Source of the DNA: Pseudorhodobacter ferrugineus DSM 5888
Lineage (GTDB): Bacteria; Pseudomonadota; Alphaproteobacteria; Rhodobacterales; Rhodobacteraceae
Direction of reading: 5' to 3'
NCBI RefSeq assembly: GCF_000420745.1
Contig: NZ_ATVN01000023.1
Span: 1 to 48,622, forward strand
Length of the DNA stretch: 48,622 nucleotides
Under the pieces are notes generated by a model, which worked only from the letters and a program-made list of their open reading frames with translations, was not told the origin of the DNA and did no database searches. Position numbers and translations under genes: made by a program. This document shows positions 3,205-41,915 of the stretch, piece by piece (positions within the stretch are counted from its first letter, which is position 1; each line of letters begins with the position of its first letter).

Positions 3205-3206
3205 GA

Positions 3207-5396: not shown

Positions 5397-5459
5397 TGAT
5401 GTACCTGTGACGCGGGCAAAGAGCCGGAAAAGAGAGAAGAAAAGGAACGGGCTTTGGCG

Positions 5460-8463: not shown

Positions 8464-8464
8464 C

Positions 8465-9145: not shown

Positions 9146-9190
9146 AGTCTTGCTCCGAAAAAAGGGGAATTACGCGGGTATCGGGCGGCG

Positions 9191-10192
9191 TTAGCTGTCG
9201 CGAAGAAACTGAGAGAAGCGCTGCCTTGTAGCGTGGCCACGCTCAGCATCTGAGCGGGCTTGATCGCGCAGATGATGGTGCTCGGTTTTGCCGCCATGCA
9301 TCATCCCCGAGCGAAACTCGTTCATCCGCCGCGACGTATAGTCGGAGGTTTTTTCCAGCGGTTTGCCAGCAATGCGCAACGCTTGCGGCGCAAAACCAGC
9401 CAGACTTATCTGCCCGGTGATATGCGTGACGGCATTCGGAATCGACATCAGCGCAAAGATGCCCACGAAAACGATAACAAAGAAACCGAGGATTGATCCT
9501 AGATCAGTGACATCCGTTGCCTTTTTGAAGACGTCGTGAGCAACCGTAACAACGGCGACGATTACCCCGGCAGAGGCGACCGGATACATGAGATAGCCAA
9601 TCATTGCAGAGAGCCAAGCTTCAAAGATGCCCTTGGTTTTGTCAAAGATCGTGGCGCCGATGGCGATGGGGGCCACGCCCAGGAGAAAGGCGATCATTAA
9701 CTTGGAGAAGCCTACGATGAAGACATAGACAGCCATGAGGATTCCAAGAACGACATAGAGGACTGCGGCAACAAATCCCCGCATAATTGAAGACATGGCA
9801 GAGGAAACAGAGTCCACGTTTCCGGCCATCATATTCGCCATGTCATCCATTGCTGCAGTGGCTGATGTTCCAACACCACTGCCACCCATTCGGAAATATT
9901 CCAGCGCGAGATCGCCTAGGCCATTGCTCAATGCTTGGTAAATTTCGACAAAGTTCATCCACGAAAGGCCAAACATCAGCACCATGGCGATCCGAAACGA
10001 CAGTTGCACCGCATCTCGCATGGCAATGCGATAGACATTCAGTGCCATATTGATCCCGACGAGCACAAGAAGCAGGGTCAATAGGCTAGTGTAGATCGGC
10101 GCGATTGCACGGGCAGTTGTCTCGAAATACTGTTGGCCAACTGCGGCTATAGCACCATCAAGCGTTGCCAAAATGGTCGAGACGCTATCCAT
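9191..10192 (-). CDS. virB6: VirB6 inner-membrane channel protein
   Basis: VirB6 is the polytopic inner-membrane part of the DNA path. The 333-residue product has about six hydrophobic segments with a large periplasmic loop, then a charged His/Arg-rich cytosolic tail. The start at 10192 overlaps the previous stop as TGATG; a longer in-frame start at 10210 exists but would overlap the upstream gene more. The membrane pattern, length and place between virB5 and virB8 identify the gene. Confidence 0.9.
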   Translation of the reverse strand: MDSVSTILATLDGAIAAVGQQYFETTARAIAPIYTSLLTLLLVLVGINMALNVYRIAMRDAVQLSFRIAMVLMFGLSWMNFVEIYQALSNGLGDLALEYFRMGGSGVGTSATAAMDDMANMMAGNVDSVSSAMSSIMRGFVAAVLYVVLGILMAVYVFIVGFSKLMIAFLLGVAPIAIGATIFDKTKGIFEAWLSAMIGYLMYPVASAGVIVAVVTVAHDVFKKATDVTDLGSILGFFVIVFVGIFALMSIPNAVTHITGQISLAGFAPQALRIAGKPLEKTSDYTSRRMNEFRSGMMHGGKTEHHHLRDQARSDAERGHATRQRFSQFLRDS

Positions 10193-10680
10193 CAAAATGG
10201 CCCGCCACACATTGTTTCAGCAACAGCGATGAGTTCATCAGCCACGTTTGAGATTGATTCAGTGTCAGCCCAGCTCAGAAGCTTAGTGTTGCTTTGCTCG
10301 CGAAGCTTTTTGGCGATCGGCTCTGACTTGCCCCAAGACGCGACCTTTCCGGCACATGAACAATCTTTGTTTTCGATGACGTTTACAGCTCGCACATAAC
10401 CAAAGATGTCACGATAAGCCCGAGCTTCAGGACCTTTCTGGCTTTGTACATATTCATGTGGCCAAGTTGCGCGGCAAGACCGCCATTCCTCGTTCACGGC
10501 ACCTTCAATGGGTCGTACATCATCGGGCACTGTAACCTTTGGCAGCACGTTCAAAAATGCCTCTTCTTGGGCTGGATTCGCTGGGACAGGGGTTTGAGCC
10601 ATGCTCGGCCCACCAAAAGCGACAAGAGACACCATCGTGAGAGCCAAGATTGTGGTGGGTTTATTCTTTGACATGGTCAT
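10192..10680 (-). CDS. Small secreted protein between virB5 and virB6, entry-exclusion candidate
   Basis: The 162-residue product has a signal peptide (LALTMVSLVAFGGPSMAQ) and a mature part with six cysteines, in the clusters SC, DCSC and MC. No named domain is recognised. In many VirB operons the gene between virB5 and virB6 encodes a small VirB7 or entry-exclusion protein. Because a better VirB7 candidate lies at 12594-12776, this gene is a candidate for exclusion or for a periplasmic accessory factor; this is positional inference. It overlaps virB5 (ATGA) and virB6 (TGATG), so it is an integral part of the operon. Confidence 0.75.
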   Translation of the reverse strand: MTMSKNKPTTILALTMVSLVAFGGPSMAQTPVPANPAQEEAFLNVLPKVTVPDDVRPIEGAVNEEWRSCRATWPHEYVQSQKGPEARAYRDIFGYVRAVNVIENKDCSCAGKVASWGKSEPIAKKLREQSNTKLLSWADTESISNVADELIAVAETMCGGPF

Positions 10681-11474
10681 TTCTCTCCAAGGACCTTTAT
10701 GAACTTTTGTTCTTCGGCGGCGGTGGCTGCGTCCATGACGCCGGCCTCACCCATGCCCATCAGCTGGGCGGATTCCATATTCCAGATATTGGCAAGCGCA
10801 ATAGACAGCTCCGCCGTCACGCGGGTGTTCAGATCAATGGCCTCTTTCATCCCTTCGGTGCCGGGAATTGCCTGAACGAGATCATTTACTCGACCAAGGC
10901 TTTCGGACGCCTTGACGGAGGAGGTTTCAGCGGCGGCGGAGAGAAATGCGGCGGTATTGGCCTGTGTGCCGATCCGGGCGGCCCCTGGGTTTTCGCTCTT
11001 GGCGAGCGCATCGACGGTTTTCACATCAAGGCCAACGGAGGTGAAAAACTCAGAAACATAGGTTTCGGCAGGCTTGCCCCCGACTTTGCCAGAAGTGGTC
11101 ATGCTGGAATAACTGCCATCCTTCGCGGCCAAGAGCCCGCCAGTCAGATTATTCACATCAGGCAAGATATCATCGAAAAACGTCTTGGGATCCGGAATGC
11201 CGAGGGCCTCCAGCGTCAGTCCTTCCTTCAACGCCTTCAATTGCTGTTCTAAAAGTAGGATCTGCTGGATCTGCTTCAGAATCTGATCATCGAGTTTCAA
11301 ATTGGACGCAATCTGCTCTTTTACCTGCAGCTTGGCCTCTGTCAGAACCTCACCAAGCTTCAAAAAGCTTTTGATGTCAAAAATAGGAACGCCTTGTGCA
11401 AGCGAAGGGATTGGAAGGATGAGTGTAACAGACAGAATGAAAGGTGGGAGACCCCGTAGGAATTTGCGGATCAT
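10677..11474 (-). CDS. virB5: VirB5-type minor pilin
   Basis: VirB5 is exported to the periplasm and caps the T-pilus. The 265-residue protein has a signal peptide ending AQG near residue 27, a long helical bundle with heptad-rich stretches (about 50-90) and a C-terminal helical region from about 205. Its start overlaps the upstream gene's stop as ATGA. Both ends resemble the ends of the upstream transglycosylase protein (AQGVP near the signal cleavage site; EAIDLN and FIKVL at the end), suggesting the two genes share ancestry. Confidence 0.85.
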
Positions 11475-12613
11475 TCAGTATTTGCCCCTACTTTGATAAA
11501 TGTTGCGTCGGTAGCATAGGCCTGCAGCCACAGTGCGTAGCGCGCTTGATCGACGCGTCCCCGGGCTGCCTTGACCCGGTTGACCATCAGCGCAATCCGC
11601 ACGGCCTCGGCTCGCGCATAGCTGTTGAGGTCCAGCGCCTCCTTGGCGGATTTGGTGGTCGGAATGCGCTCGATGATGCTGCGCAAGCGCTTTAGCGATG
11701 TTTCAATCTCAAGACTGGCCTGCATGCCATAATGCAGCCCTGCGTCCGAGATATTGCTGGCCTCAGATATTGCCATGTCTCGCGGATCAAACGTGCCGAC
11801 TTGATCAATCCCACTGATCCGACCCGCATAAGCGTTAAAGAAGCTCGTGATCCGAACCACGTAACCTTGGGTTTCCTTATAGGGTGGGACGCCACCGTAT
11901 TTGATCACAGCACCGGGCCCAGCGTTATATGCGGCCAAAGCAAGAGGGACGGAGCCAAATCGATTGAGTTGCGCCAGAAAATACCGCGCCCCGCCATCAA
12001 GCTGCAGCATTGGATCATCATAGTAGGCGGGGTAGATGCCCAGATCTTTTGCAGTTCCCGGCATAACTTGGGTAAGCCCAAACGCTCCTACGGGACTGCG
12101 CGCTCCGATGGAAAACCCAGATTCCTGCTTCACCAGGCTTTGGAACCAGATGCGGAACTCGACCGCGCTTAAGCCGGCCCGCGCAAGACCGGGATGCCCC
12201 GCATATTTGCGAGCCGTGGCGACAATCATTTCCTCAACGCTGGTCTTGGCATCACCAAACAGCCGCGCGGCATAGGGATTTTTGTCGTCAACTGCATAGA
12301 GGACCTTCGCCTCTGCACCGGGAAGTGTTTCCAGATTGCCGATCCACGGCGTTTTGCCGGTCATCATCGCCAATGTGGCGTCCAGAGCATCAAGTTGATC
12401 TTGATGCAGCGCATCGATGCGACGCTTTTTGTCGGCTTCAAGTTCGCGCGCGCCGGTCAGCGTTGTCATCTGCGCAATCTCAAGAATGTGCTGAAACAAT
12501 GCTTTCGTATCCAAGCCAGGCACACCTTGTGCCGCCGCTGCAAAAGGCAGCGCCGTAACGGCCATCAACAGCCCGCAAAGAAAATATGAAAACCTATCGG
12601 CAGGGCGAGACAT
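11471..12613 (-). CDS. Lytic transglycosylase domain set inside a VirB5-like frame
   Basis: The 380-residue secreted protein carries a goose-lysozyme/SLT-type transglycosylase domain from about 125 to 275, with the catalytic Glu at 164 in VKQESGFS, then [13 protein letters not shown] and [13 protein letters not shown]. It would open peptidoglycan for the secretion channel. The ends do not belong to a normal SLT protein. Residues 28-80 ([20 protein letters not shown], then a charged helix) and 315-380 (EALDLN ... FIKVG) mirror the start and end of the neighbouring VirB5. The simplest reading is a VirB5 paralogue with an SLT domain inserted. A separate VirB1 exists at 15718, so the operon has two cell-wall hydrolases. 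Confidence 0.88.
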
Positions 12614-12776
12614 GAGTGTCTGTTGCCAAGTTTGGGCCAGTGCCCATTGTAGAGACCACGGTGTTAGAGCCTGCAGTACTCCAGCAATTGGTCTTGGTGA
12701 TTGGCACTTCCGCGCAAGCAGACAGGGTCAGAGCGCTGAATCCTATAATAGTAATTATGTAATATATTGATTTCAT
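12594..12776 (-). CDS. virB7: VirB7-like small lipoprotein
   Basis: The 60-residue product starts [20 protein letters not shown] and has a lipobox LSAC at residues 18-21, so it should be lipid-anchored. The short mature part is Thr/Ser/Gly-rich with two more cysteines. Size, lipobox and place within the virB operon fit VirB7, which anchors VirB9 in the outer membrane, though the sequence itself is too short to prove it. The ATG at 12776 follows the virB4 stop by 7 bases; the longer open frame upstream to 12833 overlaps virB4 and is unlikely. The end overlaps the next gene by 20 bases. Confidence 0.7.
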
Positions 12777-12783
12777 TAGGTAA

Positions 12784-15126
12784 TCATTCCTTCCAGAATT
12801 TGGACCGTGACGCATAGTCGGCACCAAAGGCATTCAAACCAGCCTGACCACCGCCGAGGGCAGTCAAAAGTGGCCCCAAGGCTTTGAGATCGACATTCAG
12901 AACTGTGGAGCTGCGCGGGTTGCGCGACAGCACCATACGTTGGCCCGGGATCGGGCTCAGGACAAAATCCAACTCGCCATCGGTCAGGCGGAACCCGTCA
13001 TAGTCTGAGACCGCCGCCTCGCCATTGGGAAAGAGCAACTGGTTTGGCAGGGCTTCCAGGATTGAGCGGGCTTTTGATCCCCGGATCTGGCTCGGGAACT
13101 GGGTCATCATCACCACGACGACGTTCTTCTTGCGCGCAGTCACCAACCATTCGGCGAGCTTCTTGGCGAAGTATTCGTCGTCAAGAACTTTCCAAGCTTC
13201 ATCAATCAGGATCAGCGTCGGGCGCTTTTCCTCGATCAGCATCTCAATGCGGCGGAAGAGATAGCCAAGGATTGCAGTGCGCTCGGTGCCAAGGTCGAGG
13301 ATTTCTGTAAGATCGACGGCTGTCACGTCGTGGCTGGTAAAATCCACCACGGGCTCGTCGGCTTCGCCAAAGACCCAGCCATAACGGCCCTCCGGCCCCC
13401 ATTCGCGCAAGCGCTGCGCCAGATCGAGGCCATCCCCGACATCACCAAAGAGCTCTTGAAACGCCCGAAAATTCCGCAACCCAACGCGCGCTTTGCCGTT
13501 TTGGGCAATGGCCGATTTGAGCGCTTCTGATTGCAACGGCGACAGTGGTCCACTGCGCTGCTCTAAAAGTGCCACCAGCCAATCCAAAAACCACGCCTCG
13601 CCACGCTCGCCGGATTCAGTGGCAAGCGGGTTTAACCCCGTTGGACGCCCGGCGCGAATTTCGGCGTAGCGACCACCAAGCGCGTGAACTGCCATCTTCA
13701 GCCCCGCTTCCTTATCAAAGATGATGGTTCGGCCGCCTGCCCTTTGGGCTTGCGCAGCCAAGAAGGCCACCGTCGTGGATTTCCCGCCGCCAGATTTGCC
13801 CAGAACGAGTGTGTGGCCGTTGGTGGGTTCGGCTTTGGGATCGCCTGGCTCATGAAAACTGAACCGATGCAGCGAACCTTGCAGCGTCTGAAACAGCGTG
13901 ATCGGTGTGCCCCACGGCAGACGCGCAGGCTCTGTCCCGGTGTCAGCTGCATGCAGGGCTGCCATATCGGCGAAATTGATCGATGATACGGTCATGTCGC
14001 GCGCGCGATACGCCATATTGCCGGGATGCATGGAAAACAGACCTGCTTCGAGCGCCGTTGTTTCTCGCACCAGCCGCATACCGTTCTGATGCGCGATGCC
14101 GCGGATGCGCGCGACTTCAGTATCTAGAGCAGTTTGGCCCTCTGCAAAAATGGTAATGGTCATCTGATGCAGACCAAAACCCAACTCGCCGCTTTCAGCC
14201 TTGTCGGCGGCCTCGAAGAGCTGCGCTTCGACCGTTGCGGCGATGTCTTCGGCAGCGCGCATCTGTGTCACGCGGCGCTTGACGCGCTCGGTGATGCTGC
14301 CGCGTTCAATCGGCGTATAGCTATGGGTGATGATGGTGTCACGGCTCGCGCCGAGCGCATCAAGCATGCCGGGCCAAGTTGAGGTGGCATAGGATTTGAC
14401 ATAGAGGACCGCGCCAACGCGTGGTGTGTCAGTGCCCTCTTCCACGGTGAACTGCGCTTTTTCAAAGCGGATTGCGGCCCCGGCGGCATCTTCCGCGAGG
14501 AGGCCGAAGGGGCTGCGCGGCACAAGGCGAAGCTCGCCCGTGAGAAGGGACGCATAAAACCCGATGAGGCTGCCGTCACTGATTTTGAGTCGGTGGCTTT
14601 TTGCGCCAAGCCCGGTCTCCAAGATCGAGACCACTTCGTGGAGTTCCTCAAGCCGCCGATCGGTATCCTCGCCCCAGATCTTTGCAGCGGCCTTGCCGAA
14701 CAGAGGCACGGCAAGCGGTGCGGTTCGCTGCCGCACCACGGTCAGGATCAGCACTGACTCTTGCAGGTTGCGGCGGCCGAGATCTTGTCCCCAAGCTTTG
14801 TCGATATCCGCGGCAAAACTTTGACCGTGGATCGGCTTTAGTCCAGTCTCGGCAGGACGCATCATGCGGTGCAAATAAAAGGTGAAGCGCTCATCCAGCG
14901 TGTCCAAGAGATGCGCTAAGCCTGCACGTAAGGCCGTGATTGCGGACGCTCCCGTGGTTACCCCGTCGATACCAGTGATTTCCAACGAGATCATCAGCGC
15001 ATTGTCCCGTGTGCGCACGGTCTCATCATCAATCTCGATGACATAGGGCAAATGCGCATAGAGTTTTGGGTCCGCCGGGATCAATGCCCGCGCCCTGCCC
15101 CGCACGCCGTCCCGCTCAAGAAACAT
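12784..15126 (-). CDS. virB4: VirB4 secretion ATPase
   Basis: VirB4 is the large ATPase that drives pilus biogenesis and substrate transfer. The 780-residue product has the N-terminal VirB4/CagE domain, Walker A LGKSGGGKST (442-451), Walker B TLILIDEAW near 633 and the RAAA-like arginine finger region beyond it. Length and motifs are complete. The gene overlaps virB3 by 11 bases. A diverged copy of its last ~50 codons and the following intergenic bases occurs at 20626-20817. Confidence 0.95.
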   Translation of the reverse strand: MFLERDGVRGRARALIPADPKLYAHLPYVIEIDDETVRTRDNALMISLEITGIDGVTTGASAITALRAGLAHLLDTLDERFTFYLHRMMRPAETGLKPIHGQSFAADIDKAWGQDLGRRNLQESVLILTVVRQRTAPLAVPLFGKAAAKIWGEDTDRRLEELHEVVSILETGLGAKSHRLKISDGSLIGFYASLLTGELRLVPRSPFGLLAEDAAGAAIRFEKAQFTVEEGTDTPRVGAVLYVKSYATSTWPGMLDALGASRDTIITHSYTPIERGSITERVKRRVTQMRAAEDIAATVEAQLFEAADKAESGELGFGLHQMTITIFAEGQTALDTEVARIRGIAHQNGMRLVRETTALEAGLFSMHPGNMAYRARDMTVSSINFADMAALHAADTGTEPARLPWGTPITLFQTLQGSLHRFSFHEPGDPKAEPTNGHTLVLGKSGGGKSTTVAFLAAQAQRAGGRTIIFDKEAGLKMAVHALGGRYAEIRAGRPTGLNPLATESGERGEAWFLDWLVALLEQRSGPLSPLQSEALKSAIAQNGKARVGLRNFRAFQELFGDVGDGLDLAQRLREWGPEGRYGWVFGEADEPVVDFTSHDVTAVDLTEILDLGTERTAILGYLFRRIEMLIEEKRPTLILIDEAWKVLDDEYFAKKLAEWLVTARKKNVVVVMMTQFPSQIRGSKARSILEALPNQLLFPNGEAAVSDYDGFRLTDGELDFVLSPIPGQRMVLSRNPRSSTVLNVDLKALGPLLTALGGGQAGLNAFGADYASRSKFWKE

Positions 15127-20625: not shown

Positions 20626-20817
20626 CTATAATCAAGGTTATGTAATATATTGATTTTATTTGATAATCGTTCCTTCCATAAATTTGGCCGTGAAGCATAA
20701 TCGGCCCCGAAGGCATTCAGCCCGGCCTGACCGCCGCCAAGGGTCGCCAAAAGTGACCGCAAGGCTTTGAGATTGACGTTGAAAACTGTGGAACTGCGCG
20801 GGTTACGCGACAGCACC
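20626..20817 (-). pseudogene. Fragment of a second virB4 (3' end) with flanking bases
   Basis: This 192-bp stretch aligns without gaps to 12743-12934, the last ~50 codons of virB4 plus the space before the virB7-like gene, at an offset of 7883. Hand alignment gives roughly 80-85% identity. The encoded tail LNAFGADYASR is kept, but the stop codon is changed (TGA to CGA). The divergence means it comes from another VirB-type system rather than a recent duplication. Homology ends at the cusA stop codon. Confidence 0.85.
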
Positions 20818-23800
20818 TACCGGGCAGTCTGCTCAAACGGAAAATCTGATGCCGCGCTCGTTCTTTTCAGACCCCAGCCTTTGATGATGCCATAGACGGC
20901 GGGAATGACGATCAGAGTAAGCAAGGTTGACGATACCATTCCGCCGATCATCGGCACGGCGATGCGTTGCATGATTTCCGATCCTGTGCCATGCGCCCAG
21001 AGGATCGGCATCAGGCCCGCCATTATCGCGACCACAGTCATCATTTTGGGCCGTACACGGTCCACCGCACCGACCATGATTGCCGCGTAGAGCTCGTCGC
21101 GGGTCAAATCGCGGCCTTTGCACCGTTCGCGTGCCTCGGTCAGTGCCTGATCGAGGTATATCAACATAATCACCCCGGTCTCTGCCGCCACGCCAGCCAG
21201 CGCGATAAAGCCTACTGCCACCGCAACCGACATATTGAAGCCCATGAACCACATCAGCCAGATGCCTCCGACCAGTGCAAAGGGCAATGACAGCATGACG
21301 ATCAGGGTTTCCGTCAGGCGGCGGAAGTTGAGGAAGAGGAGCAAAAAGATCAGCGCCAGCGTCAGCGGCACCACAATGGCAAGCCGTTCTTTGGCGCGTT
21401 CGAGGTATTCGAACTGCCCGCTCCAGCCCAGCGAATAGCCTTGCGGCAAGGTTACAGATGCGGCCACAGCCGCCTGCGCTTCTTCAACAAAGCCGCCCAA
21501 ATCACGGCCCGCAATATCAACGAAGATATAGACCGCCAACTGTCCGTTTTCGGTGCGGATCGAGGTGGCCCCACGTGTGCGCTCGATTTTTGCCACATCG
21601 CCCAAGGGTATGGTGCCGCCGCCAGGCAGCGCCACTTGAACCTCGCGCCCGATCGCTTCCGGGTCTGACCGCAGGGCCGCCGGATAGCGGACGGCGACAT
21701 CATACCGCTCGCGCCCCTCGACCGTTTGGGTGATCGCTTGGGCCCCGAGTGCCATGCCGATCACGTCTTGTACATCCTGCACAGACAAGCCGTATCGACC
21801 AAGAGCGGCGCGGTCAGGGGTGATATCAAGATAGTAACCGCCGATCACCCGTTCGGCATAGGCGCTGGTTGTGCCGGGAACCGTGCGCAACACAGCCTCG
21901 ACCTCACGCGCGACCTTTTCCATCTCGGTCAGGCTGGTGCCATAGACCTTGATGCCCACAGGGGTGCGGATACCGGTGGACAGCATGTCGATGCGCGCGC
22001 GGATTGGCATGGTCCACGCATTCGACACGCCGGGAAATTGCAGTGCCGCGTCCATTTCTTGCCGCAGGCTTTCGGTGGTGACACCGGGGCGCCATTCGGC
22101 CTCGGGGCGCAGTTGAATGATAGTTTCGAACATTTCTGTCGGTGCGGGGTCGGTGGCAGTCAAAGCGCGGCCTGCCTTGCCGAAGACCGTTAGCACCTCA
22201 GGGAAGGTCTTGATGATGCGGTCTTGCGTCTGCATCAGTTCGGCCGCTTTTGTGACCGATAGCCCCGGCAAAGTGGTCGGCATATACATCAGAGTGCCCT
22301 CGTTTAGCACCGGCATGAATTCGGACCCTAGCTGGCGCGCAGGCCAGATGGTGGCGACAAGTGCCGCGAGGGCCACGATAATCGTTAGGCTTTTAGCCTT
22401 CAGAACGGCTTGAATCACTGGACGGTAAATCGCGATCAAGGCCCGGTTTACAGGGTTTTTGTGTTCCGGGATGATCCGGCCCCGCACGAACACCACCATC
22501 AACGCTGGCACCAGCGTTACCGACAGGAACGCCGCTGCAGCCATAGCAAACGTCTTGGTATAGGCAAGCGGGCCGAACATGCGGCCTTCTTGCCCTTCCA
22601 GCGAAAAGATTGGCAAGAACGACACGGTGATGATCAAAAGGCTGAAGAAAAGCGCAGGACCGACTTCGGTAGCCGCCTCGATCAACACCTCGGTGCGGGG
22701 CTTGTCAGGGGCGGCGCGTTCCAAGTGTTTATGCGCGTTTTCGATCATCACGATGGCCGCATCGATCATCGCACCGATGGCAATGGCGATGCCGCCAAGG
22801 CTCATTATGTTCGCGCCAATCCCAAGGAATTTCATCGCAGTGAAGGCCATCAGCAACCCAACCGGCAGCATGATGATCGCCACCAAGGCAGAGCGAAAAT
22901 GAAGCAAAAACACGATGGTCACGAACGCGACGACTAGGCTCTCTTCCAGTAGCGTCGTCTTTAGCGTCTCGATGGCTGACAGGATCAAATTTGAACGGTC
23001 ATAGACCGGTACGATCTCTACCCCTTCGGGCAGGCTTTGGGCGACCACGTCCAACTCGGCCTTGGCGTTCTCGATCACATCCAGCGCATTGGCCCCGACC
23101 CGTTGCAACACGATGCCACTTGCCACCTCGCCCTCGCCGTTCAACTCGGCGATGCCGCGGCGTTCATTCGGAACGATTTCGATTCGCGCCACGTCTTTTA
23201 GGCTGATAGGCACGCCGCCGATGCTGCGCAGCGTGATGTTGCCAATATCTTCGATTCCCGAAAGATAACCGCGGCCGCGCACCATGAATTCGAATTCGGC
23301 CAGCTCTACCGTGCGCCCGCCGGTATCCATATTGCTTTCAGAAATAGCCGTGCCGATGTCGGACAACGTAATCCCTTGCGCCCGCATCCGTACGGGATCG
23401 ACTGTCACCGAGTATTGCTTGACGAAACCACCAACGCTCGCAACCTCGGAAACGCCTTCGGCCCGACTTACGCCAAAGCGCACGACCCAATCTTGCAAGG
23501 ATCGCAATTCTGCAAGCGACAAGTTTTCGCCTGTGATTGCATATTGGTAGACCCAGCCCACACCCGTCGCATCGGGGCCAAGAGCGGGCGTCACCCCGTC
23601 AGGCAGGCGGGCCGCAGCGGCGTTGAGGTATTCCAAAACGCGGGATCGCGCCCAATAGGGGTCAACACCGTCCTCGAAAATGATGTAAACGAACGAGATA
23701 CCAAAGAATGAAAACCCCCGCACCACGCGTGATCGTGGCACCGTCAGCATGGCCGAGGTCAGCGGATAGGTCACCTGATCTTCGACCACTTGCGGGGCCT

Positions 23801-23966
23801 GACCCGGATAGTTGGTCAGCACGATCACCTGCACATCCGACAGATCGGGGATGGCGTCGATTGGCAACGTGCGCAGCGACCAAACCCCGGCCGCGACAAT
23901 CAAGGCGGTGGCAAAGAACACGAGCACCAGATTGCGGGCCGACCATGTGATGATACGCGCGATCAT
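20817..23966 (-). CDS. cusA: CusA/SilA-type Cu(I)/Ag(I) RND efflux pump
   Basis: CusA is the proton-driven inner-membrane pump of a tripartite system that moves Cu(I) and Ag(I) out through CusB and an outer-membrane channel. The 1049-residue product has the twelve-helix RND layout and the proton-relay helix with AIGAMIDAAIVMIENAHK. The three methionine sites known from E. coli CusA are recognisable: LMYMPTTLPG, DPAPTEMFETI and RIDMLSTGIRTP. This supports monovalent copper/silver over Zn/Co/Cd. It overlaps cusB by four bases. No CusC or CusF gene is adjacent. The stop codon coincides with the edge of the virB4 remnant. Confidence 0.93.
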   Translation of the reverse strand: MIARIITWSARNLVLVFFATALIVAAGVWSLRTLPIDAIPDLSDVQVIVLTNYPGQAPQVVEDQVTYPLTSAMLTVPRSRVVRGFSFFGISFVYIIFEDGVDPYWARSRVLEYLNAAAARLPDGVTPALGPDATGVGWVYQYAITGENLSLAELRSLQDWVVRFGVSRAEGVSEVASVGGFVKQYSVTVDPVRMRAQGITLSDIGTAISESNMDTGGRTVELAEFEFMVRGRGYLSGIEDIGNITLRSIGGVPISLKDVARIEIVPNERRGIAELNGEGEVASGIVLQRVGANALDVIENAKAELDVVAQSLPEGVEIVPVYDRSNLILSAIETLKTTLLEESLVVAFVTIVFLLHFRSALVAIIMLPVGLLMAFTAMKFLGIGANIMSLGGIAIAIGAMIDAAIVMIENAHKHLERAAPDKPRTEVLIEAATEVGPALFFSLLIITVSFLPIFSLEGQEGRMFGPLAYTKTFAMAAAAFLSVTLVPALMVVFVRGRIIPEHKNPVNRALIAIYRPVIQAVLKAKSLTIIVALAALVATIWPARQLGSEFMPVLNEGTLMYMPTTLPGLSVTKAAELMQTQDRIIKTFPEVLTVFGKAGRALTATDPAPTEMFETIIQLRPEAEWRPGVTTESLRQEMDAALQFPGVSNAWTMPIRARIDMLSTGIRTPVGIKVYGTSLTEMEKVAREVEAVLRTVPGTTSAYAERVIGGYYLDITPDRAALGRYGLSVQDVQDVIGMALGAQAITQTVEGRERYDVAVRYPAALRSDPEAIGREVQVALPGGGTIPLGDVAKIERTRGATSIRTENGQLAVYIFVDIAGRDLGGFVEEAQAAVAASVTLPQGYSLGWSGQFEYLERAKERLAIVVPLTLALIFLLLFLNFRRLTETLIVMLSLPFALVGGIWLMWFMGFNMSVAVAVGFIALAGVAAETGVIMLIYLDQALTEARERCKGRDLTRDELYAAIMVGAVDRVRPKMMTVVAIMAGLMPILWAHGTGSEIMQRIAVPMIGGMVSSTLLTLIVIPAVYGIIKGWGLKRTSAASDFPFEQTAR

Positions 23967-30703: not shown

Positions 30704-32971
30704 TCAACCCTCCCGCTCAGGATTAAAGCGCAGCAGGCGAAGCGCGTTCAGGGTAACCAGCACGGTGGCACCGGTATCAGCCAGAATGGCGATCCACAGC
30801 CCAGTAATTCCCAACACGGAGGTCACGAGAAAGACCGCCTTCAGCCCCAGCGCCAGTGTCACGTTCTGACGGATGTTGGCCATCGCCGCCCGCGCCAGGC
30901 GGATTTGCGCAGGCACATCCGTCACCCGGTCGCGCAGAATGGCGGCATCTGCGGTTTCCAGCGCCACATCGGTGCCCGACCCCATCGCTACGCCAACAGA
31001 CGCCTGTTTCAGCGCCGGCGCGTCATTGATGCCGTCACCAATCATCATCACATGACCGGTCTCACCCATCTTCTTGATCGCCGTCAACTTGTCCTCGGGC
31101 ATCATTTCCGCCTGAAACTCTATGCCGAGGCCGCCCGCAATAGCCGCTGCGGTGCGTGGGTTGTCGCCTGTCAGAACCACTGGGGTGATCCCCATGGCGC
31201 GCAACTGGCGCACCGCATCAGCGGCATCGCTGCGCGGCTCATCACGCAGCGCAAACAAGGCCAGCGGCTCGCGGGCGCGGTAAAGCACAGCAACCGTCTT
31301 TCCCTCTTCCTCCAGCGCTGACGCCTGGCGCAACCCGATCCCGTCCAGACCACCTTGCTCCATTGCATATTTGGGGTTGGTGACCCAGACGGATGCACCG
31401 TCAATCACCGCCTCGACCCCTTTACCTAGGATCGCACGGGCGTCCTGCGCCGCCAAAACAGGGGCATTCGCTTCCCTAGCCTTGCCGGAAATCGCCAAGG
31501 CAAGAGGATGGCTGGACCCTGCTTCAACCGCTGCGGCAAGCGACAGCACAGCGCTCCCATCCAGCGCGCCCAGTGCCACCACATCCGTCACCACAGGGCG
31601 GCCATGCGTCAGAGTGCCGGTCTTATCAAAGGCCACATGTGTGGTCTTGGCGGCGGCCTCGATCACCGCCCCGCCTTTCATCAACAGCCCCTTGCGCGCA
31701 CCTGCAGACATCGCCGAGGCAATGGACGCAGGCACCGAAATCACCAGCGCACAAGGGCAACCGATCAGCAAAAGCGCGAGGCCGCGATAAACCCATGTGT
31801 CCCATGACTGCCCAAACATGAGGGGGGGCACGAGGATAACCAGCAGCGCTACGCCTACGATTGCAGGCATATACCAACGGCTGAACCGATCGATGAACCG
31901 TTCTGTCGGCGCGCGGGCCTCCTCGGCCTCTTCCACCAATTGGATAATGCGGGAAATTGTGTTGTCTTGTGCAGCTTTGGTCACTCTCACGCTCAAGGCG
32001 GCCTCGGTATTGATGGAGCCTGCAAAGACCGCATCGCCTGGCCCCTTGGTGCGCGGCACGCTTTCGCCCGTTACCGGGCTTTCATCGATGCCACTTGTGC
32101 CCGATGCAATCTCACCATCCGCTGGGATGCGATCACCGGGACGCACCAGAACGATCTGGCCCACAGTCAGGGTTTCCGCGGGAACTTCACGGGTGGTGCC
32201 ATTTTCCTCCAGCAGCGCCGTTTTGGGCACGAGATTGGCCAATGCACGAATGCCGTCACGCGCTTTGTTGGCCGCAACGCCTTCCAGCACCTCGCCCACC
32301 GCAAACAAAAAGACCACCAGCGCCGCCTCTTCCGCCGCGTTGATGAACAGCGCGCCTATGGCGGCAATGGTCATCAGGCTTTCGATGGTAAAAGGTTGGC
32401 CGACGCGCAGCGCGGCAAAGGCCCGTTTGGCCACTGGGGCCACTCCGATGAGGCAGGCGATGAAAAACGCCCAATAGCCGATCTCAGACGAAGTCAAAAG
32501 TTCGATGCCCCAGGCGACCACCAAAAGAATGCCGGTCACGATGACCAGTTGGCCCTTGGAGGTCTGATACCAACGCTTGCCCCTGTCGGCGGGGTCGTCA
32601 TGCACATGGCCTGCACTGCCGTGGCCCGCATCAGGGCTGGATTTGGCGTCATGGTCATGGCCGTCGTGATCGGAATGATCCTGCGCACCTGCCTGCTCGG
32701 GCATCACAAACCCCTTCCGCGCGGCGGCCTCGCCCTTTGGCGCAATGCCGTAGCCAAGTGATTTGACCGTCGCCTCAATCCGCCCGCGGGGGGTTTGCGC
32801 CTCATCCAGTGTCAACCGCAGGCGTTCGGTCATCAGTGCCACACTGATATCAGAAACCCCCGGCAGCCGCCCCACCGCATCCTTGATCTTGTTGGCACAA
32901 GATCCGCAGTCCATGCCCGAAACGGTCCATTCGCAACTGCTGTCGGTTTGTTCAACGGGTGGCGTGGTCAT
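30704..32971 (-). CDS. cadA: CadA/ZntA-type P1B heavy-metal ATPase
   Basis: The 755-residue pump uses ATP to export Zn(II), Cd(II) or Pb(II). In order: an HMA domain with MDCGSC (residues 20-25), a His/Asp-rich linker (about 95-130), the CPC transport motif in LIGCPCALVISVPASI, phosphorylation site DKTGTLTHG, and GDGINDAPALK. The CPC context and His-rich linker favour Zn/Cd over Cu(I). The longer frame to 33034 is rejected because the ATG at 33016 lies in the MerR-type promoter; ATG 32971 has GGAG seven bases ahead. It heads an eight-gene run to 26355 with gaps of 34 bases or less. Confidence 0.93.
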   Translation of the reverse strand: MTTPPVEQTDSSCEWTVSGMDCGSCANKIKDAVGRLPGVSDISVALMTERLRLTLDEAQTPRGRIEATVKSLGYGIAPKGEAAARKGFVMPEQAGAQDHSDHDGHDHDAKSSPDAGHGSAGHVHDDPADRGKRWYQTSKGQLVIVTGILLVVAWGIELLTSSEIGYWAFFIACLIGVAPVAKRAFAALRVGQPFTIESLMTIAAIGALFINAAEEAALVVFLFAVGEVLEGVAANKARDGIRALANLVPKTALLEENGTTREVPAETLTVGQIVLVRPGDRIPADGEIASGTSGIDESPVTGESVPRTKGPGDAVFAGSINTEAALSVRVTKAAQDNTISRIIQLVEEAEEARAPTERFIDRFSRWYMPAIVGVALLVILVPPLMFGQSWDTWVYRGLALLLIGCPCALVISVPASIASAMSAGARKGLLMKGGAVIEAAAKTTHVAFDKTGTLTHGRPVVTDVVALGALDGSAVLSLAAAVEAGSSHPLALAISGKAREANAPVLAAQDARAILGKGVEAVIDGASVWVTNPKYAMEQGGLDGIGLRQASALEEEGKTVAVLYRAREPLALFALRDEPRSDAADAVRQLRAMGITPVVLTGDNPRTAAAIAGGLGIEFQAEMMPEDKLTAIKKMGETGHVMMIGDGINDAPALKQASVGVAMGSGTDVALETADAAILRDRVTDVPAQIRLARAAMANIRQNVTLALGLKAVFLVTSVLGITGLWIAILADTGATVLVTLNALRLLRFNPEREG

Positions 32972-33015
32972 ATCTGTCTCCGGTCTGGTCAAGGCATTGC
33001 TCTTATTGATTCCCA

Positions 33016-33046
33016 TCTCTAATGTCTCTAGCAACTAGAGGTTCAA
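33016..33046 (-). promoter_or_regulatory. MerR-type promoter and operator for cadA
   Basis: Minus-strand TTGAAC (33046-33041) and TAGAGA (33021-33016) are 19 bases apart, the long spacer MerR activators correct by twisting DNA. Between them lies a perfect dyad CTCTAG-TTG-CTAGAG (33040-33026). The regulator gene begins 10 bases away in the other direction. Confidence 0.8.
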
Positions 33047-33056
33047 GAGGTTTTTT

Positions 33057-33494
33057 ATGCTGACCATCGGAAAGTTAAGCAGGACTGCCGGCGTCAAAGT
33101 GCCGACGATCCGCTATTATGAAGAAATCGGTCTGCTGCCCGAAGCGGAACGAAGCGCCGGAAATCAGCGGCTTTATGGCACCGCCACAATGGACCGGCTG
33201 ACCTTCATCCGCCATGCCCGTGAGCTGGGCTTCACGCTGGAGGCCATCCGCGATCTGCTCAGCCTGTCCGATACCCCCGATCAATCCTGTGCGGCGGCGG
33301 ATCAGATCGCAAAGGCACAACTTGTCGCCGTGCGTGACCGCCTTGCCCGCCTGCGCGCCTTGGAAATCGAGTTGGAACGTATGATTGCCCAATGCGCCCA
33401 TGGCACCATCGCCGATTGCCGCGTGATTGAGGTGCTGGGGAACCATGATCTGTGCGGCCATGCGCATAACGCGTCGGATCACCCATCCCTATAA
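33057..33494 (+). CDS. MerR-family metal regulator, CadR/ZntR/PbrR type
   Basis: The 145-residue product has the MerR winged helix (LTIGKLSRTAGVKVPTIRYY), the long dimerisation helix, and a C-terminal metal loop with QSC (near 79), QCAHGTIADC (near 112-121) and a tail NHDLCGHAH. This Cys layout matches Cd/Zn/Pb sensors, not CueR. It should sense the divalent metal and switch on cadA from the shared 19-bp-spacer promoter. An AAGAGG ribosome site precedes the ATG. It ends two bases from the convergent DedA gene. Confidence 0.92.
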   Translation: MLTIGKLSRTAGVKVPTIRYYEEIGLLPEAERSAGNQRLYGTATMDRLTFIRHARELGFTLEAIRDLLSLSDTPDQSCAAADQIAKAQLVAVRDRLARLRALEIELERMIAQCAHGTIADCRVIEVLGNHDLCGHAHNASDHPSL

Positions 33495-36746: not shown

Positions 36747-38186
36747 TCAAATTTTAGTGCTGCCGGAGGCGACGCGGACGACGCCCATCATGCCAGCTGC
36801 CTGATGTTCTAGAATGTGGCAATGGAACATCCAGTCTCCTGGATTGTCCGCCACAAACGCGATCTCAACCCGTTCCTCGGGGGCCATCATCACTGTATCC
36901 TGCCATTCGCGATAACGCGTTGGTTGCCCGTTGCGCGAGATGACGCGGAACGAATGCCCGTGGAAATGGATCGGGTGATGCCAGGCCGTGCGATTGTCCA
37001 TCTCGAACACGTGCGACGTTCCCTGCGGCAAAACCAGCAAGGGTTCCTTGATCGGACCTGTCGCCGCCCTGCCGTTAATGAACCAAATGTTGCCTTCGCG
37101 CATCTGGTCCATCATCGACCTCATGCTATTGCCCATCATCATCTGCCCCATCATTCCGCCATTGAAGACGATCTGATGCCGCTCAGCCGAGGCCATGTCA
37201 GGGTCGGCAAGCGGGTTAGGCTGCAGATCTATCGGCCAATCCGGCACCGTGTCCCGTAATCTGTCAGGCGCATAGACGAGATCGACCAGACGGTATTCCA
37301 ACCCTTGGTAGAAAATATCGGTGACAAAAGCCGCATCACCAGGCTTGCCGGTCATGTCGATCACCAAATCAACCCGCATCGCCGGGCCGATAAGCACGAT
37401 ATCGCCTTCTGGTGCATGGGGCGCCACGGGCTGACCGTCCAGCGCGACAATAACTGGCGCAAACGTCCCAAAATTTAACGCGAAAATTCGGGCATTGGCT
37501 GCATTGATCAGCCGAAGTCGGATGCGCTCTCCGGCCCGGACTGAAATACGTTCCGGTATTTGACCGTTTATAGTCACAGAATTCCCAATACGTCCGCCAT
37601 GCATGGCATCGGCCTGACTGCCGAAATCACCCACAATCTGCCCGTCGGGAGACATCCGCCAATCATCGAGCATCCAAGTCATGTCGCGATCCACGCGGAT
37701 CGGGTCCGTTTCCTCAACGATCAATGGCCCGGAAAGCCCGCGTCCGACCTGTTCCGAACTGCGATGGTGGGGATGATACCAGAACGTGCCAGCGTCGAGT
37801 GCATCGAATTCGTAGAGAAAGTCGCTGCCAGCCGAAATCGGATCTTGTGTCAGGAACGGCACGCCATCCATAGCATTCGGAGTCCGTATGCCATGCCAGT
37901 GGACCGTTGTGCCTTCATCCAACCCATTTTGGGCCAAAACACGAATACGGTCGCCCTGACGCACGCGGATTTCAGGGCCCGGAATAGATCCGTTGTAGCT
38001 CCAGACATCGGTCGGGCCATAAGGTGCTGGACGCAAGGCCGCCTGGCCGGACGCCGCGCGCAGCACGAACGGTTCGTCTGTCGGGCCTGCCATGGCTATT
38101 CGTGCAGGTGACAAAGCGGATATGGCTGTGAAAGCGGCACCAGTGCGCAGCACTTGCCGTCGTGAGATATTTCTGTTGAGCATCAT
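36747..38186 (-). CDS. Three-domain multicopper oxidase, CueO/CopA-like
   Basis: The enzyme probably oxidises Cu(I) to the less harmful Cu(II) in the periplasm. The 479-residue product has a twin-Arg leader (SRRQVLRTGAAF) and four copper motifs: TVHWHGIR, FWYHPHHRS, WHHPIHFHGHSFRV and MFHCHILEHQAAGMM. A Met-rich loop near 345-370 (NGGMMGQMMMGNSMRSMMDQ) resembles the substrate-Cu(I) region of CueO. The ligand set is complete. Confidence 0.92.
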   Translation of the reverse strand: MMLNRNISRRQVLRTGAAFTAISALSPARIAMAGPTDEPFVLRAASGQAALRPAPYGPTDVWSYNGSIPGPEIRVRQGDRIRVLAQNGLDEGTTVHWHGIRTPNAMDGVPFLTQDPISAGSDFLYEFDALDAGTFWYHPHHRSSEQVGRGLSGPLIVEETDPIRVDRDMTWMLDDWRMSPDGQIVGDFGSQADAMHGGRIGNSVTINGQIPERISVRAGERIRLRLINAANARIFALNFGTFAPVIVALDGQPVAPHAPEGDIVLIGPAMRVDLVIDMTGKPGDAAFVTDIFYQGLEYRLVDLVYAPDRLRDTVPDWPIDLQPNPLADPDMASAERHQIVFNGGMMGQMMMGNSMRSMMDQMREGNIWFINGRAATGPIKEPLLVLPQGTSHVFEMDNRTAWHHPIHFHGHSFRVISRNGQPTRYREWQDTVMMAPEERVEIAFVADNPGDWMFHCHILEHQAAGMMGVVRVASGSTKI

Positions 38187-38978: not shown

Positions 38979-39482
38979 CTAGTTGCTGCGCAATGCCTCG
39001 CCCATGAGGTTCCTGCGATCTACTCTCGACCCGTCTGCGAATGCTGCGAATAGCGCGAGCGTTCGATCGCTCACATGATGTTCAATCCCTTCGGCATCCC
39101 GTTCGGCGGTCTCTAAGTCGAGACCAAGGCTGAGAAGAAAGCGCAATACAATTTCATGCCTGTGGCGGCATTCTTTCGCCAGAGCGCGTCCCTCTTCAGT
39201 CAGAAAGACAGAGCGGTATTTCGCACGGGTAATCAGTCCTTCGCGTGCGAGACGATCGAGCGTCTTGGCAACGGTAGGTGCTGTAACCCCCATTTTCGTT
39301 GCAATATCAACAGGTCTCGCTTCGCCTTTCGCATAGATCAGCTCGGCAATCAGTTCGACATAGTCCTCCGCCAGTTCATTTCGTCGGGCCGCACGCACCC
39401 CGACAAAAGCTTCGGCACGGGAATCCACCGCGCGCTCGTCAGGCATGACGGCTTCTACTTCCTGATTATCATTCTTTTTCAT
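38979..39482 (-). CDS. mntR: MntR-family manganese-responsive regulator
   Basis: The 167-residue product closely follows E. coli MntR in order: RAARRNELAEDYVELIAELI, HTH VDIATKMGVTAPTVAKTL, and the metal/dimer region with RDAEGIEHHVSDRTLALFAAF. MntR (DtxR superfamily) binds Mn(II) and then represses uptake genes or controls export. It is divergent from the oxidase/ZIP operon, with a palindrome in the space between, so it very likely controls that operon and itself. Confidence 0.9.
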   Translation of the reverse strand: MKKNDNQEVEAVMPDERAVDSRAEAFVGVRAARRNELAEDYVELIAELIYAKGEARPVDIATKMGVTAPTVAKTLDRLAREGLITRAKYRSVFLTEEGRALAKECRHRHEIVLRFLLSLGLDLETAERDAEGIEHHVSDRTLALFAAFADGSRVDRRNLMGEALRSN

Positions 39483-39527
39483 CCGTTAAGCTTTGCATGA
39501 ATTGGATTGACAGGTAAAGGTGTAGAG

Positions 39528-39548
39528 TAGACAAGTTAGCCTTGTCTA
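39528..39548. promoter_or_regulatory. Perfect palindrome between mntR and the oxidase/ZIP operon
   Basis: TAGACAAG-TTAGC-CTTGTCTA has two perfect 8-bp half-sites. It lies 45 bases ahead of mntR and 49 bases ahead of the oxidase gene. A TTGACA at 39507-39512 may be the -35 of the oxidase promoter, which would put the palindrome over the -10. This is the likely MntR operator. Confidence 0.75.
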
Positions 39549-39597
39549 ACTTTTGATGCATAGACTTTAGCACTGCTCCCGCAAGGAAACCTGATTC

Positions 39598-40737
39598 ATG
39601 GCCGACGCTTCCAAACCCTCTCTTGATCCTTCGCGCCGCGCTCTGCTGGTTGGTGGCCTAGTGGCCGCAGGCGGAGCAGCCATCGCCGCTGGCAGTGCGC
39701 GCTCTCAAAGCGCAGCGGATCCTATGGCTGGTCACGATATGTCCACCATGCCGGCAGATCCATATGCTGCCCCAATGCAGGGAATGGCGCACGGCAACAT
39801 GACAACGGTTGGCTTGGTCGATCACAATCGAAACGGGTTTGATCCGACTGCCATGTTGACGGATTGGGAAAGGGGAACAACCGAGCTATTGCCTGATGGG
39901 AGAACGCTTCGAACATTCGAAGTCGATGCCATTGACAAGGAAATCGAGATTGCACCCGGCCTTTTCTTTCCAGCCTGGACCTTCAATGGCCGGGTCCCTG
40001 GTCCTGCCCTGAGGGCGAAGGAGGGCGAACGGCTTAGGATAGTCTTTCGCAACTTAGGCTCGCACCCACATTCCATGCACTTTCATGGCATCCATTCGGC
40101 GCGGATGGATGGTGTTCCTGGTGCTGGATTGATTGGTCCGGGCGAGGAGTTTATCTACGAATTTGACGCTAAACCTTTTGGTTGCCACCTTTATCACTGC
40201 CACGCCTTGCCCCTAAAGCGGCATATGCACAAAGGTATGTATGGTCTTTTCGTTATCGACCCCGATCCTGAGCGTCACCCCGAGAACGCGACCGTCGCGG
40301 CATCGCGCCTGCTTGGCAGCCCTGAGAATGCTCATTGGCAAGAGATGGCTATGGTGATGAACGCCTTCGACACTAATTTCGACGGCGCAAATGAAGTTTA
40401 TGCTGCAAACACTGTCGGCCAAGCCTACATGAATGAGCCAATTCGCATCGACAAATCGCGCCCAGTTCGCATTTACTTGGTGAACGTGACCGAATTCGAC
40501 CCGATCAATTCATTCCATTTGCACGCGAATTTTTTTGACTATTACGACACCGGAACCACGTTGACGCCAACGCTGCGCACCGTTGATCTGATCATGCAAT
40601 GTCAGGCGCAGCGCGGAATCCTTGAGTTCAGCTTCGCCGATCACGAAGATGGAATGTACATGTTTCATGCACATCAGTCCGAGTTCACCGAACTTGGTTG
40701 GGTTGGAATGTTTGATGTAAGGAGCTCTGCGAAATGA
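39598..40737 (+). CDS. Two-domain multicopper oxidase coupled to a ZIP transporter
   Basis: The 379-residue product has a twin-Arg leader (SRRALLVGGLVAAGGAAIAA), a Met/His-rich stretch after it (DPMAGHDMSTMPADPYAAPM), and copper motifs HSMHFHGIHSAR, GCHLYHCHALPLKRHMHKGMYG, SFHLHANFF and MYMFHAHQSEF. The length and motif spacing fit a two-domain multicopper oxidase. Substrate cannot be read from sequence; control by MntR and coupling to a ZIP protein point to Mn(II) or Fe(II). AAGGAAAC precedes the ATG, and the stop overlaps the ZIP start (ATGA). Confidence 0.88.
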   Translation: MADASKPSLDPSRRALLVGGLVAAGGAAIAAGSARSQSAADPMAGHDMSTMPADPYAAPMQGMAHGNMTTVGLVDHNRNGFDPTAMLTDWERGTTELLPDGRTLRTFEVDAIDKEIEIAPGLFFPAWTFNGRVPGPALRAKEGERLRIVFRNLGSHPHSMHFHGIHSARMDGVPGAGLIGPGEEFIYEFDAKPFGCHLYHCHALPLKRHMHKGMYGLFVIDPDPERHPENATVAASRLLGSPENAHWQEMAMVMNAFDTNFDGANEVYAANTVGQAYMNEPIRIDKSRPVRIYLVNVTEFDPINSFHLHANFFDYYDTGTTLTPTLRTVDLIMQCQAQRGILEFSFADHEDGMYMFHAHQSEFTELGWVGMFDVRSSAK

Positions 40738-41915
40738 ACGAGCAGGTTCAGCCAAAGCGCCCCGCACTGAGCCGCTTGCTGCTGGTGCTTGTGCCACTGG
40801 CAGCCATGCTTGGCATGTTCGTTTGGATTGCGTCGCTTGATCCCCTGCGCAGTTTCAACAATGGCGCGCCGCCTGTAGAGGCATTGACCGTGGAGCGGAC
40901 AATTCTGGACGAGACCGGGATCGGGCTTTTGGTCCGTGCCGGTGGTTCAGACGCCATGGTGATCGCCCAGGTGGCGGTGGACGACGCGTTCTGGACTTTC
41001 ACGCAGAATCCGCCCGGGCCGATCGTTCGTGGGGGTGCTGTGTGGATCCAGATACCCTATCCGTGGGTTTTCGGCGAGGCGCACGCAATTAATATGCTGT
41101 CTAATACTGGTGCTTCGTTCGAACATGAAATCGCTGTAGCTGTGCCAACACCAAAGGCCACGGTGGGTCAGCTTCGCCTTCAGGCATTAGTGGGAGCGAT
41201 TGTTGGGTTGCTGCCTGTGGCGCTAGGTCTGATGTTCTATCCGGCAATGCGAAGCGCCGGGCGTGTCGGGGTGAGTTTTCTTCTCGCGCTGACGGTCGGT
41301 TTGCTGACCTTCCTGCTCATTGACATGACGTCCGAGGCGTTGGAGCTTGCAGACCAGGCTGCAGCATTGTTCCAAGGATCGGCCATGGTCTGGCTGTCTG
41401 GGCTCGCGAGTTTCCTCATGCTGATGGCAATCGGACGCTGGCGCGGCACGCCGGAAGGGCTGGCGTTGGCATTTTACATTGCCCTAGGGATAGGCTTGCA
41501 CAACTTTGGCGAAGGGCTGGCGATTGGCGGCGCGTTTGCTGCCGGATCGGCAGGGCTCGGTACGTTCCTCGTTCTCGGCTTTGCTCTCCACAATGTTACC
41601 GAAGGGATTGGCATCGCTGCGCCGATGTTGCGGATCCGGCCGCCACTCTGGAGTTTTGCAGCCCTGACCCTTTTGGCGGGTGGCCCTGCCGTTCTAGGAA
41701 TGTGGGCAGGAAGTCTTGCATACGCTCCGCAATGGTCGGCATTGGCGATGGCCGTTGGGGCTGGCGCAATTTTGCAGGTTATGGTCGAGGTTACGGCCTA
41801 TCTGATGCGCCAGAGCAGCGACCGGCAAGCGGTGCTGTTTTCTCCCGCCGTTCTCGGAGGGTTTCTTGCGGGGCTCGGTTTCATGTATGCAACTGCTGCG
41901 CTGATCAAGGTTTGA
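40734..41915 (+). CDS. ZIP-family metal transporter with periplasmic N-terminal domain
   Basis: The 393-residue product has an N-terminal membrane helix (about 15-33), a ~110-residue periplasmic beta-rich domain, and then eight helices with the ZIP motifs GLHNFGEGLAIGG and ALHNVTEGIGIAAP, which carry the His/Asn/Glu metal ligands of helices IV and V. ZIP proteins move divalent metals into the cytoplasm. The extra-cytoplasmic domain is unusual and could dock the oxidase encoded just upstream. It is translated with that gene through an ATGA overlap. Confidence 0.88.
   Translation: MNEQVQPKRPALSRLLLVLVPLAAMLGMFVWIASLDPLRSFNNGAPPVEALTVERTILDETGIGLLVRAGGSDAMVIAQVAVDDAFWTFTQNPPGPIVRGGAVWIQIPYPWVFGEAHAINMLSNTGASFEHEIAVAVPTPKATVGQLRLQALVGAIVGLLPVALGLMFYPAMRSAGRVGVSFLLALTVGLLTFLLIDMTSEALELADQAAALFQGSAMVWLSGLASFLMLMAIGRWRGTPEGLALAFYIALGIGLHNFGEGLAIGGAFAAGSAGLGTFLVLGFALHNVTEGIGIAAPMLRIRPPLWSFAALTLLAGGPAVLGMWAGSLAYAPQWSALAMAVGAGAILQVMVEVTAYLMRQSSDRQAVLFSPAVLGGFLAGLGFMYATAALIKV

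Follow-up and report, generated by a model that had tools for sequence, protein, structure and literature searches.

A multicopper oxidase and ZIP-like transporter gene pair beside mntR as a probable manganese-starvation operon

A 48,622-nucleotide stretch of Pseudorhodobacter ferrugineus DSM 5888 (contig NZ_ATVN01000023.1; this whole stretch is hereafter called the window) carries an mntR gene divergent from a two-domain multicopper oxidase (MCO) gene, which is followed on the same strand by a gene for a ZIP-like transporter. Comparing these genes across genomes, we propose that the MCO-ZIP pair is probably a manganese-starvation operon, repressed by Mn-loaded MntR, serving Mn(II) acquisition and standing in the place of mntH (the gene of the Nramp importer) among relatives. 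The pairing is steady, a conserved operator lies between mntR and the MCO gene, Mn-type regulators adjoin the pair in several clades, and the same type of promoter precedes Nramp in other genomes. An initial annotation of the window had already described MntR divergent from a two-domain MCO that overlaps a ZIP protein with an extra periplasmic domain; the open reading frames (ORFs), Pfam matches and a predicted structure model all agree with this, and the MCO stop and ZIP-like start share ATGA at 40734-40737.

The gene pair and its products

The regulator belongs to NCBIfam PRK11050 (197 bits, cut-off 153), and its closest PDB structure is the MntR 2h09 (136 bits). Aligned to 1on1, it retains positions D8/E11/H77/E99/E102/H103, which we take to be the Mn-type metal ligands in B. 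subtilis MntR numbering. The oxidase has the Pfam domains Cu-oxidase_3 and Cu-oxidase_2. Its type 1 (T1) residues H158/C201/H209 and eight trinuclear-cluster histidines are invariant in 44/44 sequences (we presume the ligand roles of these residues), as are the acidic E299, D301 and E362. It matches the PDB structures 7rab (545 bits), 3gdc (334 bits) and 3g5w (84 bits), and shares two cupredoxin domains with these MCOs (and 7rac), which have T1 in domain 1 and which we take to be those labelled 'type C'.

The transporter matches Pfam Zip at 33.1-34.4 bits (E 4.5e-8), which is significant but below the gathering cut-off of 35.1. Its predicted structure has one N-terminal transmembrane (TM) helix, a beta-sandwich (residues about 47-135, its eight-strand domain at 51-133) and a ZIP bundle (144-392), with the TM4 and TM5 metal motifs in place in the modelled ZIP fold. 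Zip is its sole Pfam match and the fold resembles BbZIP in a VIA-align comparison, so it is not a permease of the Ftr1 type. It differs from BbZIP and ZupT in its motifs (HNFGEG and HNVTEG, with an invariant Q348) and in adding the N-terminal TM helix and the beta-sandwich, which is FlaF/FlaG-like. We assume that these motifs replace the proline of known ZIP motifs, and the BbZIP ligand numbers are likewise our assumption. The HNxxEG metal sites are kept among relatives.

To follow the pair across genomes, we scanned a genome collection, in which ZIP had 94 relatives; the best 80 of these 94 were kept and formed 79 loci. Such a scan reaches close relatives. The MCO lies directly before ZIP in 74 of the 79 loci, and the exact ATGA overlap is found in 61. 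Of the other five, two carry a ZIP that is split or partial and has an MCO match upstream; the remaining three are partial ZIPs without an MCO. On three Paracoccus-type contigs (L084, L085 and L011), a 3' part of ZIP (residues 216-393) overlaps a partial mntR-like frame without an MCO; these remnants look like the result of an internal deletion of the operon. ZIP is also carried by 147 plasmid records, of which 18 were fetched. All 18 have an annotated MCO directly upstream, and they come from Alphaproteobacteria, Cyanobacteriota, Deinococcota, Actinomycetota, Bacillota and haloarchaea (six phyla). With a further 20/20 archaeal regions (see below), adjacency elsewhere, which the initial annotation had set as a test of the pair, is thus not rare.

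The ZIP profile matches only 5/398 genomes of the phylum (one a fragment), and ZIP itself matches 10/292 genomes of the order, Rhodobacterales (one a fragment), so MCO-ZIP is an accessory system. All nine order genomes with a full-length ZIP have both an MCO and MntR adjoining it. The tree distances of MCO and ZIP correlate (r 0.89, 44 sequences, uncorrected for species descent). In some loci a third gene follows downstream: by annotation, this is a Rieske protein in Rhodococcus (L097, L106 and L108), a plastocyanin-like protein in haloarchaea (L099 and L104), and TatA in Bacillaceae (L098 and L102), the last of which fits twin-arginine translocation (Tat) export of the oxidase.

Operator, promoter and the exchange with mntH

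The 8-5-8 palindrome that the initial annotation placed between mntR and the MCO is exact, but it is not a conserved site. Scanning the whole window for 8-base arms with spacers of 0-11 gives 16 rows, some of them nested, so that this palindrome by itself is little above chance. Across 49 related loci with MntR, MCO and ZIP, it occurs outside the window only in the nearest relative (L012), and we dropped it as the operator. The core GTTAGN6CTAAC, on the other hand, is present with at most one mismatch in 39 of the 40 distinct intergenic regions of these loci (mean 0.06 and maximum 1/40 in 100 shuffles), although the regions are not independent, as the loci are related. In the window, the site with this core starts five bases after the start of the palindrome and overlaps it. 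Given this difference in conservation, 39533-39552 rather than 39528-39548 is the likely MntR operator. The perfect core TTAGCCN4CTAAC occurs twice in the window's own genome; the ORF behind the second match (C11:104960) has no metal link by eye, and we take this match to be chance, which is unproven.

Anchoring the promoters on this box, we found by eye TTGAC in 38 of 39 printed rows (the region of L034, unmatched, was not printed) and, in most of them, a GATTRT-like element resembling a -10 and running into the operator. In B. subtilis, a single MntR operator overlapping the promoter represses uptake genes, while activation of export by MntR has been described with four weak sites (PMC11275975, in part).

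To see what MntR adjoins where the pair is missing, we took a census of the order. MntR is present in 49/292 genomes at 56 places, nine of them adjoining MCO-ZIP, and we fetched 20 of the other 47. Ten have an Nramp neighbour, four a metal ATP-binding cassette (ABC) binding-protein gene, and six neither by tblastn. Three of the four ABC neighbours resemble the AztC/MntC-type protein of the window's genome and one the Ensifer protein. In three Nramp loci (L218, L219 and L232), MntR is 74, 83 and 83% identical to that of the window, and the 66-base block of the Nramp promoter is 80, 80 and 76% identical to its best MCO-ZIP promoter. Compared ungapped with the window's own block, these values fall to 42, 53 and 44% because of a one-base shift in the window. 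With regulator and promoter this alike, it follows that MCO-ZIP in some genomes and Nramp in others are controlled by one type of switch. The MntR-MntH arrangement of these three loci shares its MntR family and its operator and promoter type with the window, whereas its Nramp importer is replaced there by the MCO and ZIP pair. A search of the window's own genome found no Nramp, and two genomes (G099 and G280) have both Nramp and MCO-ZIP.

Other genes were also seen near MntR. L227, which has neither an Nramp nor an ABC neighbour, has a general ZIP gene nearby. In three more of these six loci (L221 4335-6188, L223 1880-3733 and L229 4087-5967), an MntR-type gene is divergent from a MauG-like protein of ~620 aa. 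The di-haem cytochrome c peroxidase domain scores 43.6 and 44.6 bits in L223 and L229, and L221 was assigned by likeness; TAGC-GCTA boxes lie near the gene in L221 and L223. This protein is possibly another redox enzyme under MntR.

Regulators in other bacteria and in archaea

Mn-type regulators or operators recur beside the pair in many clades, but not in all. Plasmids of Phyllobacterium and Shinella carry an annotated MntR and TAGC-GCTA palindromes. In Deinococcus, Halorubrum and Arthrobacter, the adjoining regulators are of the DtxR family with a FeoA domain; the Mn-type MntR model gives them higher scores than does the iron DtxR model (232 vs 99, 211 vs 94 and 181 vs 100 bits, respectively), all below the cut-offs. 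Nramp also adjoins the pair in Deinococcus, as does the MntR-like regulator. Arthrobacter has AATGTTAGCCTTGGCTAACAAT upstream of the pair, and Peribacillus has the palindrome AAAAAGTTTACTTAAGGAAACTTTTT, which we presume resembles the B. subtilis MntR box. Matches to our own profiles are by construction for the loci from which these were built (L096, L099, L100, L104 and L105 for DtxR, and L091-L093 for MntR). The plasmid box scan spanned 230 bases, too few to include the point where the longer intergenic region of L091 begins. In R. opacus (L105), a DtxR-type regulator is present and the 230 upstream bases scanned contain no box. Single weak matches in the loose TTAG-CTAA scan mean little, since Microvirga also matches at one mismatch.

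Among Rhizobiales loci without MntR, 10 of 23 upstream regions show, by eye, a GCRAATGN5CATTYGC-type site ahead of the MCO. We searched six Rhizobiales-type genomes for perfect copies. Those of L068, L067 and L075 contain 2, 2 and 3, with one before MCO-ZIP and one before an ABC binding-protein gene in each; the third copy in the L075 genome (G296) precedes a sulfatase gene. In the Devosia genome of L071, the sole perfect site precedes the MCO, while the genomes of L065 and L063 contain none. With these two genomes and the 10/23 count, we dropped the site as a general feature of loci without MntR. The gene across the site from the ABC importer is of the Fur family (in L130 at 131 bits with Pfam FUR, in L134 by eye; for L129, the ORF printed at this position is instead a longer, overlapping one). 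We take this gene to be mur and the site to be the Mur operator, judging from position. In R. leguminosarum, Mur represses sitABCD and mntH in response to Mn (PMC5575495, in part). The window's genome has TTGCGAAGCATTCGCAA and TGCGAACCGTTCGCA just upstream of its own metal ABC operon (L122 3330-3406), the type of operator that precedes MCO-ZIP in some Rhizobiales. The nearest models of the ATPase and the binding protein of this operon are MntA (234 bits) and AztC (Zn, 182 bits), both under the cut-offs; with MntC (Mn), the binding protein scores 135 bits.

The pair is also found in archaea. In the phylum of the Nitrosopumilaceae genome G669, 55/250 genomes match ZIP; 30 of these matches are nearly full length (>340 bits), and the rest are partial or general ZIPs. 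The homologous MCO is adjacent to ZIP in every one of the 20 regions taken, mostly from the best matches, from 19 genomes (the ZIP match of L200 is partial). L088, in which the flanking ORFs had no family matches, encodes proteins 46% and 40% identical to the window's MCO and ZIP. Upstream of the archaeal MCO, all 18 aligned regions (L194 and L200 were left out) have a recognisable copy of AAAGTTAGCCTAGGCTAACTTT before a TATA-like stretch, and the best copies of the operator, AAGTTAGCCTAGGCTAACTT, equal the window's operator at 18 of 20 bases (both by eye). At up to one mismatch, the 18-base archaeal pattern occurs in the six genomes searched only at MCO-ZIP promoters, including both copies in a two-copy genome, and a reversed-pattern control gave 0. 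An MntR-type gene adjoins the pair in five of the 20 regions. Checked against the B. subtilis-type MntR model (cut-off 138), four of these genes reach 132-138.5 bits and one of the four passes; the MntR of L185 also carries the Mn-type ligands. Some archaeal copies of the pair adjoin a gene for a ZnuA-family metal-binding protein (L185 88-978) or a cation-efflux (CDF) gene (L188 5120-6472).

Mechanism and competing explanations

We infer that repression would work as follows. With adequate Mn(II) in the cell, Mn-loaded MntR on the operator would block the promoter, and when Mn is low the MCO and the ZIP-like protein would be produced. The MCO would be sent to the periplasm by Tat, where it would work ahead of transport, and the ZIP-like protein would import Mn(II). 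Perhaps the oxidase clears competing Fe(II) and/or Cu(I) by oxidation, so that a modestly selective ZIP channel would admit mainly Mn(II). We prefer this role, though unproven, over Fet3-like coupling or the release of Mn from a ligand, because ZIP retains its metal sites and Fe(II) competes naturally. The initial annotation had proposed an oxidase-ZIP pair for Mn or Fe; the steady pair beside MntR supports this in part, with the evidence pointing to Mn and making Fe less favoured.

Several observations weigh against this reading. Copper and other metal genes lie near the pair in several loci, and the window's MCO has a Met/His-rich stretch (by eye); both would suit a role in copper as well. 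According to our own profiles, 25 genome loci (L062-L080, L083 and L086-L090) have no MntR or DtxR in the flank, and we dropped MntR beside the pair as a universal rule. Three of four Rhodococcus, three of three cyanobacterial and one Cytobacillus plasmid loci have no Mn-type regulator and no box at up to one mismatch. The window's promoter has a poor -10, and its elements lie one base further apart than those of most relatives; a promoter scan of the window did not report a candidate for MCO-ZIP. Three of the four ABC binding proteins found next to MntR are similar to that of the window's genome, for which AztC (Zn) is the best model. In Rhizobiales, the EfaA (Mn/Fe) model gives the ABC binding protein 209-216 bits and the AztC model 202-205; these scores are close and all under the cut-offs, so the models do not settle the metal of this importer. 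TTAG-CTAA operators are general across the DtxR family, so similar operators in both domains need not point to one metal, and part of the likeness between bacteria and archaea may be due to the shared protein family. Finally, copper limitation raises the permease (log2 1.33) and MCO1 (log2 0.81) of Nitrososphaera viennensis (PMC7785015, in part).

This archaeon has a two-domain MCO1 and an adjacent zinc/iron permease (NVIE_000600/NVIE_000590), for which oxidation of Cu(I) to Cu(II) by the oxidase and import of Cu(II) by the permease have been proposed (PMC7785015, in part); the main text of that paper contains neither 'manganese' nor 'DtxR'. We likened this pair to that of the window by its description, a two-domain MCO beside a ZIP-type permease interpreted as copper uptake, and compared archaeal relatives instead. 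The three-domain MCO, P-type ATPase and RND pump on the window's contig would also suit copper uptake. However, MntR/DtxR-type regulators adjoin the pair in many clades, a matching operator precedes Nramp elsewhere, and the operator lies only at the pair in six archaeal genomes, which makes copper uptake quite unlikely here. Iron fares similarly: import of Fe(II), or of divalent ions broadly but chiefly iron, under the control of Mn or Fe status, would fit the FeoA-containing DtxR-family regulators and the Rieske or plastocyanin gene downstream in some loci. The Halorubrum regulator also matches in the PDB 5zr4 ('metal-dependent transcriptional regulator', 143 bits) and 8pvt ('iron dependent repressor, putative', 114 bits) ahead of MntR (68 bits). 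Yet the model scores of these three regulators lean to Mn, if below the cut-offs, and the MntR of the window and of L185 carry Mn-type ligands, so that iron as the main cargo seems rather improbable.

Coupling as in yeast Fet3-Ftr1, where a multicopper oxidase partners a metal permease, would have the oxidase make a trivalent ion from Fe(II) or Mn(II) and pass it to the transporter for import. The steady pairing, the parallel trees, the extra periplasmic domain on ZIP and the invariant acidic residues of the MCO all suit such a hand-over. The window differs in having a two-domain MCO, its ZIP-like rather than Ftr1 permease and its Mn-type regulator. ZIP proteins carry divalent ions, and the metal sites for them are kept; with Zip as the permease's only Pfam match, we consider the coupling unlikely. 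MntR can also activate exporters (PMC11275975, in part), so the pair might instead export Mn for detoxification. The promoter here has a single strong palindromic operator, like that of Nramp in three loci and unlike the four weak activation sites, and the ZIP family mostly imports; export would thus be very surprising.

The initial annotation knew of no described system of this make-up. This did not hold up, as the N. viennensis pair had been described; what is added here, as far as the searches reach, is the link to a Mn regulator, an operator that bacteria share with archaea, and the interchange with mntH. A literature search by listings and the beginnings of abstracts found no publication describing the MCO-ZIP combination under Mn control. 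A broader and more tentative idea, which we regard as doubtful, is an ancient cross-domain Mn module in which the oxidase is the selectivity filter of a Mn-importing ZIP interchangeable with MntH, and in which the ammonia-oxidising archaeal pair imports Mn rather than Cu. Nramp and ABC systems are the ones to which Mn import is mostly attributed. If the manganese reading is true, bacteria and archaea would have a third, copper-enzyme-assisted route that ties Mn supply to copper and O2; it would also account for the additional periplasmic domain on ZIP, and the ammonia-oxidising archaeal gene pair would be reassigned from copper to manganese.

The features of the locus are collected in Table 1. 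Elsewhere in the window, ORFs at 1213-15126 resemble a conjugation system by eye only; 3207-5396, the sole ORF of this stretch tested, has no Pfam match. The same contig also encodes an RND efflux pump (20817-23966), an HMA-type P-type ATPase (30704-33016), a MerR regulator (33057-33494) and, by Pfam, a three-domain MCO (36747-38186).

Table 1. Features of the mntR and MCO-ZIP locus, in window coordinates.
Feature	Position	Strand	Basis
mntR, DtxR-family Mn-type regulator, 167 aa	38979..39482	-	NCBIfam, PDB alignment
TTGACA, candidate -35 element of the MCO-ZIP promoter	39507..39512	+	TTGAC kept among relatives, by eye
8-5-8 palindrome of the initial annotation, overlapping the operator, not conserved	39528..39548		Window and L012 only
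AAGTTAG-CCTTGT-CTAACTT, conserved MntR-type operator (predicted)	39533..39552		Core conservation across intergenic regions
Two-domain multicopper oxidase (MCO), twin-arginine motif R13R14, T1 site in domain 1	39598..40737	+	Pfam
ZIP-like transporter: N-terminal TM, periplasmic beta-sandwich, ZIP bundle	40734..41915	+	Pfam, predicted model

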